This document shows, piece by piece, positions 1 to 7,066 of a DNA stretch of 64,000 nucleotides. The stretch is from assembly GCA_949292635.1 (NCBI GenBank), contig CASEZY010000002.1:1-64000 (forward strand). Direction: 5' to 3'. Below the pieces are notes generated by a model. The model ran no database searches and was not told the origin of the DNA. It was given only the letters and a program-made list of their open reading frames with translations. Both the position numbers and the translations under genes were made by a program. The stretch's first letter is position 1, and each line of letters begins with the position of its first letter. This stretch comes from an uncultured Methanomassiliicoccales archaeon (lineage in GTDB: Archaea; Thermoplasmatota; Thermoplasmata; Methanomassiliicoccales; Methanomethylophilaceae).

Positions 1-234
1 CTCAGCGGCGGCGGCTGCGGGGGCAGCACCGGCGGCGGCTGCGGGGGCAGCGGCCATGACGGAAGCGGATGCGATGGCTTCCTCGATGTTGACTCCCTCA
101 AGGGATGCGGTCAGTGCCTTGATCTTGGCTGCGTCAGGCTCGACACCGGCGGCCTTGAGGATGGCTGCGATAGCGTCCTCGGTGATGTCCTTGCCGGCTG
201 CGTAAAGAACCATTGCGCTGTAGATGTACTCCAT
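1..234 (-). CDS. rpl12: Ribosomal protein P1 (L12), partial
   Basis: The minus-strand reading begins [20 protein letters not shown] and runs into an Ala-rich hinge at the window edge, the layout of archaeal P1/L12 stalk protein. The C-terminal acidic tail lies outside the window. P1 dimers bind the tail of P0 (L10) and recruit translation GTPases. A GGAG motif sits 9 nt before the ATG, and the gene follows rpl10 by 16 nt as the distal gene of the rpl1-rpl10-rpl12 operon. The identity is firm from sequence and context; only the length is unknown. Confidence 0.93.
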
Positions 235-250
235 TTCATTCAACTCCTAT

Positions 251-1252
251 TTATCCGAACAATGCAGAGAGGCCGGCGGCGGCTTCTTCCTCGCTGACCT
301 CCTCCTCCTCTTCCTCGGGCTCCGCCTGGGCGGCAGGGGCCTCGGCGGCGGCAACGGGCGCTGCGGTGGCCGCGCAGGACAACCTGCCGGCGATGGCGTC
401 GTTGGTGTAGCCGGAAGCAGATGCGACGGCAAGCATCTGAGCGTCTGCCTTCGCGAGGAGCATCTCTATGTTCTCTTTGGTTGGTATCGCGGCCGAAATC
501 GAGAGACCCAGAGCCTCCCTGAACGCCTTCTGCAGCAGCGGGACGATGGTCTCCTTCGCGGGGAACGCGATGGAAACTCCCAATGCGCGGGCGTTGTATG
601 CGGCCGTAGCGAACATGTCTCTGTAGTAGTTCTCGGGGATGTCCAGGACGTCCTTCTTGTAGATCACGCCATCCTCGTAGCAGGCCCTAAGGTCCATTCC
701 CACGATCATGGGCAGGATCTCCAGCTTCGGGAGCATCGCTGCGACGTTGGCCGGGACGGGCTCGCCCTCCTTGACCAGCGTGGTATCCTTCTTGACTACT
801 ATCTTCCCTCCGTCGATTGCGGCGGGAAGGCCTAATTTCTGAAGATCTCCGATGATCGGGCCGGGTCCGAACGGGGTGGGTCCCTTGGGAACCACGATGT
901 CGAAGGGGGCGATCTCTCCGGGCTTCGCGGCGGCGGGGGTCTTGGTGGACTCCAGCTTAGCGAAGAGCTTGAACGGGTTGATGTCGGTGGACACAACCGC
1001 GCACTGTCCGTGGACAGCCTCCTTGAGTCCCGCGATCTCGGGCTTGGACTCCGCGGCCTGCTCGATGGCCAGAAGAATCAGGTTGTTCTTGGTCATCTTG
1101 AGCTTTGCGTGGCCCCTGAGTCCCGCCCTCATGGTCTGGATCTGCTGTCCGCCGATGCCGTGGACGTCGACGACGGCCACGACGGGCGAGGACACCATCT
1201 CCTGGGCGAGCTCGTTCACCAGATCTTTCTTCCAAGCTGCGACGTGTGCCAT
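251..1252 (-). CDS. rpl10: Ribosomal protein P0 (L10)
   Basis: The product is 333 residues, starting MAHVAAWKKDLV. It has the L10 RNA-binding N-terminal domain, a central insertion typical of archaeal P0, and a C-terminal stalk-binding and acidic tail ending SEEEAAAGLSALFG. It anchors P1 dimers on 23S rRNA at the GTPase-associated centre. The length matches archaeal P0 (about 300-340). It lies 12 nt downstream of rpl1 and 16 nt upstream of rpl12 on the same strand, the conserved archaeal order. Confidence 0.96.
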   Translation of the reverse strand: MAHVAAWKKDLVNELAQEMVSSPVVAVVDVHGIGGQQIQTMRAGLRGHAKLKMTKNNLILLAIEQAAESKPEIAGLKEAVHGQCAVVSTDINPFKLFAKLESTKTPAAAKPGEIAPFDIVVPKGPTPFGPGPIIGDLQKLGLPAAIDGGKIVVKKDTTLVKEGEPVPANVAAMLPKLEILPMIVGMDLRACYEDGVIYKKDVLDIPENYYRDMFATAAYNARALGVSIAFPAKETIVPLLQKAFREALGLSISAAIPTKENIEMLLAKADAQMLAVASASGYTNDAIAGRLSCAATAAPVAAAEAPAAQAEPEEEEEEVSEEEAAAGLSALFG

Positions 1253-1264
1253 TTACGAACCTCC

Positions 1265-1903
1265 TCAGATCAACCTCACGGACTTGCCCATGGTGGTCTT
1301 CACGTAGGACGAAGCGATGTTCATCCTTCCCTTCTCCAGCTTGAGCTCGACACGTTTGAGGACGGTCTCGATGTTCTCAGCCAGTTCTTCGGGGGACATG
1401 TTGACGGTTCCCACGGGTGCGTGGAAGGTTATCCTGTCCTTAGTCCTGACAGAAACGGTCTTGCGGAGGTTGTCGATCATTCCCTTCGGGTCTGCTCCCG
1501 GGGGAATGGGCTTCGGCATCTTTCCGCGGGGACCGAGGACGGTACCGAGCCTCTTACCGACGACCGCCATCAAGGGGGCCTCGGCGATGAAGTAATCGGT
1601 CTCGTTCGCGATCTTCTTGGCCTGCTTCTTGTCGTCTGCGATCGTCTGAAGTTCCTCAGCGGAGATCACAGTGTCGGCAACGTCTTTGGCTTTCAAGGCA
1701 AGTTCGCCACCACCAATCACGCAGACGTGGACCGGCCTTCCGCGGCCGTAGGGCAGGATGATGTCATCCTGGATACGGTTCTTCGGGATGGTCAGGTCGA
1801 TGTCCTTGAGATTGATGGCCAACTCAACCGTTTCAACAAAATTGCGCTTCTTCGCACTCTCGAGTGCGTTCTGCACAGCCATAACGGTTGACTTATCTGC
1901 CAA
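1265..1903 (-). CDS. rpl1: Ribosomal protein L1
   Basis: The product is 212 residues with the L1 signature around GPRGKMPKP and an N-terminal region of positively charged helices. L1 binds 23S rRNA at the mobile L1 stalk and, in many archaea, autoregulates its operon by binding its own mRNA leader. It is the first gene of the rpl1-rpl10-rpl12 operon. Its ATG lies about 50 nt downstream of the predicted transcription start, which leaves a leader long enough for such control. Autoregulation here is inferred from the family. Confidence 0.96.
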   Translation of the reverse strand: MADKSTVMAVQNALESAKKRNFVETVELAINLKDIDLTIPKNRIQDDIILPYGRGRPVHVCVIGGGELALKAKDVADTVISAEELQTIADDKKQAKKIANETDYFIAEAPLMAVVGKRLGTVLGPRGKMPKPIPPGADPKGMIDNLRKTVSVRTKDRITFHAPVGTVNMSPEELAENIETVLKRVELKLEKGRMNIASSYVKTTMGKSVRLI

Positions 1904-1973
1904 ATCTATTCCTCCTCGTAGTGCATGCGAACCTTGCGGCTCTCCTACAAGTGGGATGTTCGTATACTGGGGT

Positions 1974-1983
1974 TGTATTTAAA
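1974..1983 (-). promoter_or_regulatory. TATA box of the rpl1 operon
   Basis: On the minus strand this reads TTTAAATACA, a good archaeal box A. A start about 25 nt downstream (near 1953) gives a leader of roughly 50 nt before the rpl1 ATG. The remaining spacer to 2127 contains no gene I can support. Confidence 0.6.
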
Positions 1984-2127
1984 GGTGTTTCATTCCAAAC
2001 GGTGCGGATCTCTATATTTGCGCGTTATATAGTCATATAATGTCCGTTTCGGACGAGGATGGGTTGTGGTGTGACATCGAACCTCTGCCGATACGACCCG
2101 CATTTTCCCGAGTGTTTCGAGAACGTC

Positions 2128-2499
2128 TCATCGGCAAGACTGCAGAAGATCTGCAGCCTGTGACAGCACCCGAATCATCGACTGCAAACAATCGGACACA
2201 CTCCTATCCACGAGTCTGACGATGATCCTCCCGTCCGATAACTCAGCACCGTTGATGCACAACGCATCGTCCAACACGGCTATTGAATCCCTGCCCTCAT
2301 AAGACATCCACATCATGGTGTAGCCTTCATCCGACAGGATCCAATCGCGCCCATCTCTCTTCAGCACTATATGTAGTTCGTCGCCATCGGGAAAACAGCA
2401 CCCGGTTCCAATTAGGTAGCGATTGGTGTCGAGGCGTTTGAAGGTGATATTGCGCTGCCCGTGGTTCATCGAGTCCAGAATCGTCTCTGCCGAGATCAT
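2128..2499 (-). CDS. DUF1828-like small protein
   Basis: The product is 123 residues from the ATG at 2499, chosen because GGAGG lies 6 nt upstream; a start seven codons earlier has no such site. The middle reads GDELHIVLKRDGRDWILSDEG. This resembles DUF1828, whose conserved core is a beta-strand pair followed by an SDEG-type turn. DUF1828 proteins occur in restriction, toxin-antitoxin and mobile contexts, but their function is unknown. It stands alone between the ribosomal operon and a candidate structured RNA. Family assignment is by pattern only. Confidence 0.6.
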   Translation of the reverse strand: MISAETILDSMNHGQRNITFKRLDTNRYLIGTGCCFPDGDELHIVLKRDGRDWILSDEGYTMMWMSYEGRDSIAVLDDALCINGAELSDGRIIVRLVDRSVSDCLQSMIRVLSQAADLLQSCR

Positions 2500-2654
2500 A
2501 CGAACGCCTCCTTTGCACACAGGCCCTTAGCGAACCGCTCTGATATGAAAGTCTGAGATAAAACCTGAACCGCTTCGTTGAAGGCGGACGCATGACTCAG
2601 TGATGATATCGCTGACCTGCGGCAAGAATTACTAGCGACGACCACAAACGCATA

Positions 2655-2674
2655 GATGTGCCTGCTGGCACATC
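2655..2674. promoter_or_regulatory. Palindrome GATGTGCC-TGCT-GGCACATC
   Basis: This is a perfect 8+4+8 inverted repeat in the spacer between the DUF1828-like gene and the 3' end of the structured RNA candidate. Near-identical palindromes occur at 14383-14400, 56686-56704 and 56875-56895, all intergenic. The recurrence suggests a dimeric transcription-factor site. The rest of 2500-2704 shows no gene. Confidence 0.55.
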
Positions 2675-2704
2675 AGCATGAACTAAGATTCAAAGATTGC
2701 ACAC

Positions 2705-3197
2705 AAAAGCGATGCGAAACCAATTAAGTATACGTCACAGAATCCCAAACGGTTTGAAGCAGCTGTGATCACGGCTTCAGGCAATCCGGTCCGCGAGTGC
2801 GCTTGACCGCCTGCCCCCCTCCGCGCCGGGAACGCCCCTTGAGCGTCCGGGTGTCTCACGACCCGACCGGCCGAGGATCTGCCGCGGGCATCCAACCGAA
2901 AAGCGTCCGAACGGGGACCGTCGCCGCATCTTGTGGCGCCCTCCGCTCTCTCCTACGGAGGTTCTATTGGTTCGTTCAGGTCTCGGCCGCCACGCCGTGG
3001 GAACCGTCACCCGGCCCCACGCGCTGTCATCCGGTGGATGTCACAGCTGCTTCCATCCCTTCCCCTCCGTTGCTGCTGTGTGGCAGTTTCCTTTCGGGGG
3101 AAAGGATCACATGGCAACGACATCGGACCTCGATCAGCCTCGCCCTCGTACCGTGGCATTCCACGGCAGGGTCTGCGTCTCGATCCGCATCGCGCAA
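2705..3197 (-). ncRNA. Candidate structured RNA, about 490 nt
   Basis: No convincing protein lies in this GC-rich stretch, but the minus strand can form a closed RNA. The 5' end (3193-3184, GCGATGCGGA) pairs over 10 bp with the 3' end (2718-2709, TTCGCATCGC), which is followed by TTTT. Inside, 3053-3041 and 2768-2756 form a perfect 13-bp helix (GAAGCAGCTGTGA with TCACAGCTGCTTC). Local hairpins include CCGTGG-AATG-CCACGG, CATCC-ACC-GGATG, and GTGGCG paired with CGCCAC enclosing CCTCCG/CGGAGG. A TATA box at 3218-3225 predicts a start near 3197, matching the closing helix. GGAAACT and CCAATAG motifs faintly recall archaeal RNase P RNA, but I cannot find its conserved 3' core, and the SRP RNA core is absent. 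Identity is unknown. Confidence 0.6.
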
Positions 3198-3217
3198 CAG
3201 AAAATATTCGTTGAAGA

Positions 3218-3225
3218 CTATATAA
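3218..3225 (-). promoter_or_regulatory. TATA box of the structured RNA candidate
   Basis: The minus strand reads TTATATAG within AATCATTATATAGTC. The usual 25-nt spacing places the start near 3197, within a few bases of the proposed terminal helix. Apart from the terminator hairpin at 3366-3382, nothing else is recognised between 3226 and 3397. Confidence 0.55.
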
Positions 3226-3365
3226 TGATTACGTTTTCTCCATCCAACATCCAAATATCGACGGCAATCAGCTTGTGAAAACGGTCGTCGTGACGATTGG
3301 ACATCGCTGGTATTCGAGACTGTCAGAACTGCCAATTCCGCTCTTGAGACCGATGAACACAGATG

Positions 3366-3382
3366 CAGGGCACGTTGCCCTG
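3366..3382 (-). terminator. Hairpin after the DUF4143 ATPase gene
   Basis: A 7-bp stem (CAGGGCA / TGCCCTG) with a 3-nt loop lies 15 nt beyond the stop codon of the ATPase gene at 3398. It is terminator-like, but no strong T run follows. Confidence 0.35.
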
Positions 3383-3397
3383 AACACACAGTACGGA

Positions 3398-4609
3398 TCA
3401 CGACTTGCCCGTGAGCCAATCGACTATGTCCACCACATGTATCCCTTCGATATTATCGAAGATGTACCTCCCGCAGGTTATGATGGTCTTCGGATAGTTG
3501 TCCCCGATGGCCTTCAACGCACGGACCGCTCCTCCCACCTCTTTGGAATCGAACATATTGGGACACACCTGATAATATGACGGCGATTGTACCGGATCGG
3601 CGATGAAATCCACCTCCATGCCGTTCACATCACATACCGCCGCATTCCTGTGACGCACCAGAAGCTCATTGAACACTATGTTCTCCAACAGCCCCTGCAT
3701 ATCCGCCTCGTCGAAGGGCAGCAGCATGTTGCGGAACCCGAGATCGGTGATGTAGTACTTGTCGATGGTCCCCCTGTCATCCCTGTACTTGGAATCCACC
3801 CGGCGGGCACGGATGATGAGTCCTGCGGACCTCATGGCATCCACGTACGATGCCACGGTGTCGGAGGTCACCTTGTGTCCCATATCCGCCAGCTGTTTGG
3901 CGATGCTGCGCATGGAGACACGCTTCCCGAGATTCCTCATCAGTACCGCGACGATGGGAGATACCAGCGACGCGTCCCGCAGACCTTTTCTGCCGATGAT
4001 GTCACGGACGCACACCGTATGATACATGCCTTCGATCATGTCCTCCACGCTCTCGGGTGACCGGCCCTCCAGGATCGCCACCGGCGGTAGACTGCCGTGA
4101 CGCAGGAAATCTCTGAACAGTGCCACCCGGTCGCCTTCGCCACGCAACACAAGATATTCCGAGAACGTTGGCGCCCTGACGTCGAACTGGATGAACCTGC
4201 CGGAAAGGAACGTTCCCAGCTCCGAATACATCAGATCGGTGTCCGAACCGGAGATATAGACGTCGGCACCGCGGTTGTACAGCGTGGACACAACCCTCTC
4301 CCAGCCCTCCAGCATCTGTACCTCATCCAGGAATATCGTCGCGTTCCCGAGATCACCCACCTTGGATTTGATGTCCTCGAGCAGTTCGGACGGACTGTTG
4401 AACTCGGGCAGAGAAACATCCAGCTCCCGCCAGTACACGGAAGACCCAGATATCCCGGAATCCAGCATCTCCTCCATCAGGGTGCGGAGGATCGTGGTCT
4501 TCCCGCAGCCGCGCATCCCCGCCAGGACCTTGATGAACAAAGGACCGCGGGCCGCCCTCAGCTTCGACAGATAGACCTCCCTAAGCATCGCAGCGGATGA
4601 TGTGTTCAT
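3398..4609 (-). CDS. AAA ATPase with C-terminal DUF4143 domain
   Basis: The product is 403 residues. Walker A is at 31-39 (GMRGCGKTT) and Walker B ends in LDE at about 94-96, followed by sensor-like ISGSD. A winged-helix linker and a DUF4143-type nuclease-fold C-terminus (DVNGMEVDFIADP, then ITCGRYIF) come after. This P-loop ATPase family is abundant in archaea and gut anaerobes; its function is poorly known and defence or selfish-element roles have been suggested. A TATA-like ATTCAAATAG at about 4630-4641 predicts a leaderless start at the ATG. A second, divergent member lies at 29478-30755. Confidence 0.88.
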   Translation of the reverse strand: MNTSSAAMLREVYLSKLRAARGPLFIKVLAGMRGCGKTTILRTLMEEMLDSGISGSSVYWRELDVSLPEFNSPSELLEDIKSKVGDLGNATIFLDEVQMLEGWERVVSTLYNRGADVYISGSDTDLMYSELGTFLSGRFIQFDVRAPTFSEYLVLRGEGDRVALFRDFLRHGSLPPVAILEGRSPESVEDMIEGMYHTVCVRDIIGRKGLRDASLVSPIVAVLMRNLGKRVSMRSIAKQLADMGHKVTSDTVASYVDAMRSAGLIIRARRVDSKYRDDRGTIDKYYITDLGFRNMLLPFDEADMQGLLENIVFNELLVRHRNAAVCDVNGMEVDFIADPVQSPSYYQVCPNMFDSKEVGGAVRALKAIGDNYPKTIITCGRYIFDNIEGIHVVDIVDWLTGKS

Positions 4610-4776
4610 ATGTCGAGTACGATGGACACACTATTTGAATTGACACGGTTTTATCGACTATAATCGACATATCTCCGAAAGCCGACAACATGGATCGACA
4701 ACGGGGAGGTCCCTCGAAAATCCGATACTGGCTCATGCGTAAGAATGGGTAAGAAGAAATGGGAAGGCATCCCTGA

Positions 4777-4799
4777 CCGGGGGGACGGAGGCCCCCCGG
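4777..4799 (-). terminator. Terminator of the secE-spt5-rpl11 operon
   Basis: An 8-bp GC stem (CCGGGGGG / CCCCCCGG) with a 7-nt loop lies 17 nt past the rpl11 stop and is followed on the minus strand by a pyrimidine-rich run. The remaining spacer to 4609 holds only the ATPase promoter. Confidence 0.6.
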
Positions 4800-4815
4800 C
4801 GGTGATGAATGCGTT

Positions 4816-5286
4816 TCAGAACTGATCGTCGTAGAGACCGGCCTTGACGTCCTTCTGGAAGTCCTTGGGATTCTTGCCGTCGATGGTGACTCCGACGGAG
4901 ACGCAGTTGCCTGCGACCTCGAGGACACGTGCCTTCATGTCGGCGCCCAGCAGGTCGTCCTGCTTCATGTCGGCAAGCTTCTTGGCCTGCTCAACGGTCA
5001 GGTTGCCCACCTTGGTGGTGCGGGCGTTGGAGGAGCCGGAGGAAAGACCCAGCTCTCCCTTGATAAGTGCGGAGATCGGAGGGGTACCGACCTTGATCTC
5101 GAAGGACTTGTCGTCCGCGATCAGGATCTTCACCGGGACCTTCATCCCGGCGAACGCCTTCGTCTTGTCGTTGATGGCCGCAATGACCTGACCGATGTTC
5201 ACACCCTTCGGCCCGAGAGCGGGTCCGAGGGGAGGCCCTGCGGAGGCCCTGCCTCCGTCTACCAATGCCTCGACAGTATCTACCAT
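4816..5286 (-). CDS. rpl11: Ribosomal protein L11
   Basis: The product is 156 residues, starting MVDTVEALVDGG, with the L11 hallmark PPLGPALGPKGVNIGQ near the N-terminus. L11 binds the GTPase-associated 23S rRNA region together with P0. The length is normal for archaeal L11. It is the last gene of secE-spt5-rpl11, only 5 nt after spt5, and a strong hairpin follows. Confidence 0.97.
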   Translation of the reverse strand: MVDTVEALVDGGRASAGPPLGPALGPKGVNIGQVIAAINDKTKAFAGMKVPVKILIADDKSFEIKVGTPPISALIKGELGLSSGSSNARTTKVGNLTVEQAKKLADMKQDDLLGADMKARVLEVAGNCVSVGVTIDGKNPKDFQKDVKAGLYDDQF

Positions 5287-5291
5287 TGTGT

Positions 5292-6092
5292 TCAGTTCTC
5301 CTTTTTCCTGACGCTGTCAGCTTTGACTGTGATGGGGATAGGGACCATGGCGCCCACGAGCAGCACCTTGATCTCCTCCTTGTCGGCCTCGATCTGCTGG
5401 ACCTTGGCCATCTCTCCCTTGAACGGACCGCTGACCAGTTCCACCAGATCGTCCTCTGCCAGCCCGACCACGGGGGACAGGGGCTGCAGGTAGTGTCCGA
5501 TCTCCTCGATGGAGGACTCCCCGTCCACGAAGGAGCGGGCCTTGCGGATGTCACGGGTCTTCTCCCTCATGCGGTCGGTGTTCATGCCCTCGACGAAGAT
5601 GTACCCTCTGAGGCTGGCGGGGCTGAGTATGGCGTAGATGTCCTTGTCTCCCAGGTCCGCCTTGGCGGCAAGACTGTCCGCCACGCTGCGCTCCTGATCC
5701 ATCTGGGTCTTCAGCACCACGATGGACTGCACGGCCACCGCCTTGGCGGTGACGGAATCGATGTTGCCGTCGGTGTTGGCCTCCACGGTGACCTCGGCGA
5801 ACTCGCCGTACCTGGCACCCTTGGGGCAGGTGACCTCCAGGTAGAAGTCCTTGGCACCGCTGGCGGGAAGCTCCGCCTCGCAGGTGTCGGTGTGGAGGTA
5901 GCTGTTCCAGATCTCGCCGTTGTGGTCGCAGATGGCGACCGCCCACTCCGGAGCGTCATCCGCATCCGGACCGGTGACGGTCCCCACCCTGAACTTCACC
6001 TCTCTGCCGCCGTTGACCCTGAAGGGCCACTTGACCGCGACACCGGCGCGGACATCCTTGGGCTCATCGTCCCCTGTGAAAGCTATCGACAT
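5292..6092 (-). CDS. spt5: Transcription elongation factor Spt5 with N-terminal extension
   Basis: The product is 266 residues. From about residue 122 it is a standard archaeal Spt5/NusG: an NGN domain (IVVLKTQMDQERSVADSL, then GYIFVEG) and a KOW motif (VSGPFKGEMAKVQQI). Spt5 bridges the RNA polymerase clamp and couples transcription to translation. The first 115-120 residues are additional: they read as alternating beta strands resembling an Ig-like sandwich (LEVTCPKGARYGEFAEVTV). Typical archaeal Spt5 is about 145-160 residues. No internal start seems preferred, and the gene follows secE by 9 nt. Confidence 0.92.
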   Translation of the reverse strand: MSIAFTGDDEPKDVRAGVAVKWPFRVNGGREVKFRVGTVTGPDADDAPEWAVAICDHNGEIWNSYLHTDTCEAELPASGAKDFYLEVTCPKGARYGEFAEVTVEANTDGNIDSVTAKAVAVQSIVVLKTQMDQERSVADSLAAKADLGDKDIYAILSPASLRGYIFVEGMNTDRMREKTRDIRKARSFVDGESSIEEIGHYLQPLSPVVGLAEDDLVELVSGPFKGEMAKVQQIEADKEEIKVLLVGAMVPIPITVKADSVRKKEN

Positions 6093-6996: not shown

Positions 6997-7066
6997 AACG
7001 GCCGGTCATCGGCCGTCTTAACACGATTCTTGCATTCTTTGAAAAATAAGAGGAAGGGCACAGGGC

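Follow-up and report, generated by a model that had tools for sequence, protein, structure and literature searches.

Does a GC-rich block of about 490 nt, lying between the rpl11 and rpl1 genes of a Methanomethylophilaceae archaeon, encode a stable RNA, and if so, of what kind? The window (the whole stretch of 64,000 nucleotides that was analysed) begins with a ribosomal-protein block, L12-L10-L1, on the minus strand; further in, the interval 2705-3197, described as gene-free by the first-pass annotation, does lie free of genes between an AAA/DUF4143 ATPase gene and a DUF1828 ORF (Table 1). No tRNA is found in the 64-kb window, and Rfam 15 gives zero matches in it at the gathering threshold, in agreement with the earlier description of the block as belonging to no recognised family; the below-threshold matches of this block and of its homologue are noise from eukaryotic miRNA, lncRNA and snoRNA families.

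Table 1. Coordinates in the window of the proposed RNA gene, its predicted parts and the neighbouring genes
Feature	Position	Strand	Remarks
DUF1828 ORF	2128-2520	minus	adjoins the candidate RNA block, between it and rpl1
Proposed ncRNA gene	2705-3195	minus	portion conserved in G005 ~2738-3195
3' arm of the end-closing helix of the first-pass annotation	2709-2716	minus	partner 3186-3193; not kept in G005
Core-closing 13-bp helix, 3' arm (UCACAGCUGCUUC)	2756-2768	minus	identical in G005
3' part of the core, its most conserved portion	2771-2867	minus	hairpin GGGUCGUGAGACACCC, G-rich AGGGGGG strand, arm GGCAGGCGGUC...GACCGGAUUGCC
Long core arm closed by CGGCCGAG and its complement	2868-2989	minus	consensus fold
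Hairpin of the core whose GGUGA loop is conserved (GCCGGGUGACGGC in the sister species)	2992-3024	minus	consensus fold
Core-closing 13-bp helix, 5' arm (GAAGCAGCUGUGA)	3041-3053	minus	identical in G005
Second hairpin (AUCCUU.CCCC / GGGG.AAGGGAU)	3055-3107	minus	consensus fold; 2 two-sided compensated pairs
5' domain, long imperfect hairpin	3114-3195	minus	consensus fold; the second helix has 3 pairs compensated on both sides
Promoter	3208-3240	minus	TATATA at 3224-3219; start expected near 3195
AAA/DUF4143 ATPase gene	3398-4609	minus	other flank of the gene-free block
L11 gene (rpl11)	4816-5286		beyond the AAA/DUF4143 ATPase gene
Spt5/NusG gene	5292-6092		after L11

A homologue of the window RNA is present at G005:C19:26552-27016, with 75% identity over 491 columns; G005 is a Methanomethylophilaceae MAG of a sister species in the same genus as the window organism, and is the only one of 101 relatives searched to give a full-length match. 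The homologue is located directly downstream of rpl11 on the same strand, so that the locus is as in the window. The two copies are separated by ten indels (1, 1, 4, 1, 1, 2, 8, 2, 1 and 1 nt); because these lengths are not codon-like, no protein is conserved, no reading frame is kept between the two species, and a coding origin is rejected. The mean identity (about 70-75%) is unremarkable, the conserved blocks are remarkable: third codon positions of the neighbouring genes are 52-82% identical to those of G005 (roughly 70% nearby), and as the mean identity of the RNA is close to this level, constraint outside the conserved blocks is considered to be weak. The 3' part of the core, ~140 nt (2740-2883), reaches 92% mean column identity.

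The surroundings of the two copies differ in content. The rpl11-rpl1 interval (window 2000-4800; L071:3000-4700) is an insertion hot spot, holding the DUF1828 ORF and the AAA/DUF4143 ATPase gene here, a Fic-family gene in G005 and other genes in congeners; direct repeats, AACTTTGCATAACTTTGCATTCTCGTGTAAAGTGTAAAGTTA, are located on both sides of the Fic gene of G005 (L071:3040-3092 and 4388-4430). The adjacent L1-L10-L12 block (window 6-1984) is 94.8% identical to that of G005, while most other long aligned blocks are 74-85% identical; this suggests recombination or strong codon constraint.

The minus-strand TATA box claimed earlier, with an expected start within a few nt of the closing helix, is found in place; the spacing from TATA to the GCGCG of the start is 29 nt in both the window RNA and the G005 homologue, with CAACGAAT between the two elements common to both species, an arrangement in keeping with a stand-alone ncRNA gene that has its own promoter at a conserved distance. 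Transcription would proceed on the minus strand from this archaeal TATA promoter, with a start near 3195. The promoter block occurs once in its own genome. At the far end the terminator signal is weak; the T run pointed out by the first-pass annotation is present, although it amounts to merely four T (2708-2705).

The perfect 13-bp helix that had been proposed inside the block is present and is identical in the sister copy; none of 120 dinucleotide shuffles has an inverted repeat longer than 11 bp. As a single sequence the block is predicted to fold more stably than its shuffles (z -2.6, 0/100), as is the G005 copy (z -2.3), and the structure predicted from a single sequence carries over to the other species in part only. 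Of the 10-bp helix thought to close the ends, eight perfect pairs are found in the window; however, G005 lacks the 3' partner, and in the consensus fold the 5' arm pairs instead with a nearby segment. The predicted architecture has two hairpins at the 5' end and, after them, a large multi-branched core that the 13-bp helix closes. The 5' domain is weakly supported when tested as a single window; the second hairpin is covered by columns 81-220, for which the consensus z is -3.05. Within the core, the hairpin with the GGUGA loop is mostly common to the folds of both strands, and the long arm contains an inner hairpin, CCUCCG/CGGAGG, with a U-A to C-G change.

The two-sequence consensus fold is predicted at -147 kcal/mol vs -122 kcal/mol in column-shuffled alignments (z -3.8, 0/200), and for the core alone the pair count is above that of 199/200 shuffles. 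Each of the 117 consensus pairs is a standard pair in the two species, and 11 have changed on both sides, a count to be read with the caveat that the fold was selected using these same two sequences; when the partner strand is slid, 0-2 two-sided changes are obtained vs 11 in place. The 11 two-sided changes of the predicted strand are not above chance when compared with refolded column shuffles (8.7 +/- 2.7, 49/200), whereas the fold of the opposite strand has 16 vs 7.8 in shuffles (0/200); the strand assignment therefore rests on the promoter. The folds of the two strands have 55 pairs in common; the 13-bp helix is among the shared elements, as are the 3' arm and much of the core hairpins. 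When the two sequences are aligned by structure, 19 two-sided changes and 0 broken pairs result, by a method that is biased towards such an outcome. With two sequences alone covariation is only moderate, and the core is probably structured and conserved.

The conserved hairpin CGGG-UCGUGAGACA-CCCG has a loop that is nearly that of the GUCGUGAGACA hairpin of 23S rRNA (helix 94); by a rough estimate a chance match of such length is not improbable. The Rfam scan gives no LSU rRNA match to the candidate, and homology to the partial 23S RNA of the same genome was rejected, the matches being due to chance. That 23S rRNA gene (G000:C20:1-1638) is truncated at the contig end, and its 3' part is absent from the assembly.

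As far as can be seen, the RNA is confined to a single Methanomethylophilaceae genus and, within it, to two sister species. A third member is found neither in 147 genomes of the order (BLAST and covariance model R1), nor in 40 relatives searched with laxer filters and covariance model R2, nor in 400 genomes of the class by sequence and covariance-model searches; R1 has an automatic structure without the 13-bp helix and R2 a structure given by hand, and the outcome is the same. The genomes of other genera of the order that were searched do not contain the RNA, and the rpl11 loci of the congeners G001-G004 have other genes after rpl11 and no such RNA. When the exact pattern GGGTCGTGAGACACCC is sought in 84,980 species genomes, the G005 contig is the sole real match; scanned viral contigs give a single chance match, in a methyltransferase-like gene, and scanned plasmids give none. 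Weak model matches in G016, G007, G015, G005:C1 and G331 are judged to be chance, as they lie inside or overlap long open frames. No literature on a large ncRNA of this archaeal lineage was found.

The first-pass annotation proposed a stable RNA of about 490 nt and of no known family; this reading, with the RNA standing alone, is supported by an orthologue in which the promoter spacing and the helices are kept and the indels are non-coding. We consider it fairly probable that the locus is a stand-alone gene for a structured ncRNA of about 460-490 nt, on the minus strand with its own TATA promoter, and most likely trans-acting; the gene is probably a genus-restricted orphan. Transcription, the 3' end and the trans-acting role are inferred. 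The product would most likely be a trans-acting stable RNA or RNA-protein particle, rather than the leader of a neighbouring gene, and is probably bound by protein, given its own promoter, closed multi-branched core and conserved loops. Putative contact sites would be the conserved unpaired or loop segments, UCGUGAGACA and the AGGGGGG strand, which carry no statistical support.

An unlikely alternative, though the strongest of the rivals, is that the block is what is left of a mobile element or a degraded gene, with a GC-rich composition that makes it foldable, and that it stays similar through the limited divergence of two recent sisters. Its position in an insertion hot spot (with the ATPase and the repeat-flanked Fic gene), an overall identity near that of third codon positions and the narrow distribution are all compatible with such an origin; however, the true spacer at 6997-7066 is 51% identical between the two species vs 92% for the 3' core, and the conserved promoter spacing, the stability of the consensus fold and the lack of a retained protein frame speak against it. 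A long structured leader or cis-regulator (riboswitch or attenuator), acting on the next gene or on the L1-L10-L12 operon, is less likely still; in both genomes the RNA and rpl1 share a strand, with the RNA upstream; however, the gene that intervenes directly downstream of it is DUF1828 in the window and Fic in G005, and the rpl11-rpl1 region of the relatives inspected has no such RNA. As the adjacent genes differ between the two species, a cis-acting role is considered unlikely.

That the block is an RNase P RNA, whether divergent or duplicate, or an SRP RNA is scarcely credible. The candidate is like archaeal RNase P RNA (RF00373) in being large, GC-rich and multi-branched, and like archaeal SRP RNA (RF01857) in being a stable, large RNA whose size is of a similar order; this size, the GC content and two short motifs pointed out by the first-pass annotation, GGAAACT and CCAATAG, are what speaks for such an identity. 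It differs from both in that neither the window copy nor the G005 copy matches the RF00373 or RF01857 covariance model at E<=10. A canonical, complete RNase P RNA lies on another contig of the genome (G000:C5:60733-61023, 212 bits), leaving the divergent reading unsupported, and the genome's SRP RNA is also on another contig (G000:C7:44744-45054, 158 bits); BLAST of the candidate against these two RNAs gives a single chance 13-nt match. Nor are the motifs retained: GGAAACT aligns in the homologue to an unrelated, shorter GC-rich stretch, and CCAATAG reads CGAATAG in G005.

That the candidate stands for a new functional class among large archaeal RNAs, as a ribozyme or RNA-protein particle whose rapid evolution would leave homologues in other genera (among them perhaps a differently built RNA of G033) unrecognisable by sequence, is a tentative idea that we hold to be doubtful. 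In G033 a 36-nt block, 86% identical to the promoter of the window RNA, precedes a second orphan RNA candidate of ~300 nt at L004:1480-1880 (G033:C19, + strand), in which the closing helix starts near the expected transcript start and two GAAGACCAC segments occur. This candidate matches no Rfam family, and no relative of it is found in 102 genomes of the archaeal family; it was rejected as a third member, the likeness being confined to the promoter-like block, after which an unrelated RNA candidate follows.

To our knowledge, few large structured RNAs are known from archaea beyond rRNA, RNase P and SRP RNA. Among bacterial large orphan RNAs, the OLE, ROOL and GOLLD families are present in Rfam. 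The comparison with the candidate is one of analogy only, as OLE, ROOL and GOLLD are also hundreds of nt long, with a complex fold, a lineage-limited distribution and a role that was long unknown (PMC12286853, PMC9723947). The candidate differs from these in that it is archaeal, has no Rfam match, counts two members and has nothing so far that points to oligomerisation or to a protein partner. In Methanomethylophilaceae, an orphan RNA gene of ~480 nt that keeps its promoter and core would offer a concrete target for pull-down and expression work; it would also bear on how many lineage-private large RNAs go missed, having just one or two sequenced relatives.
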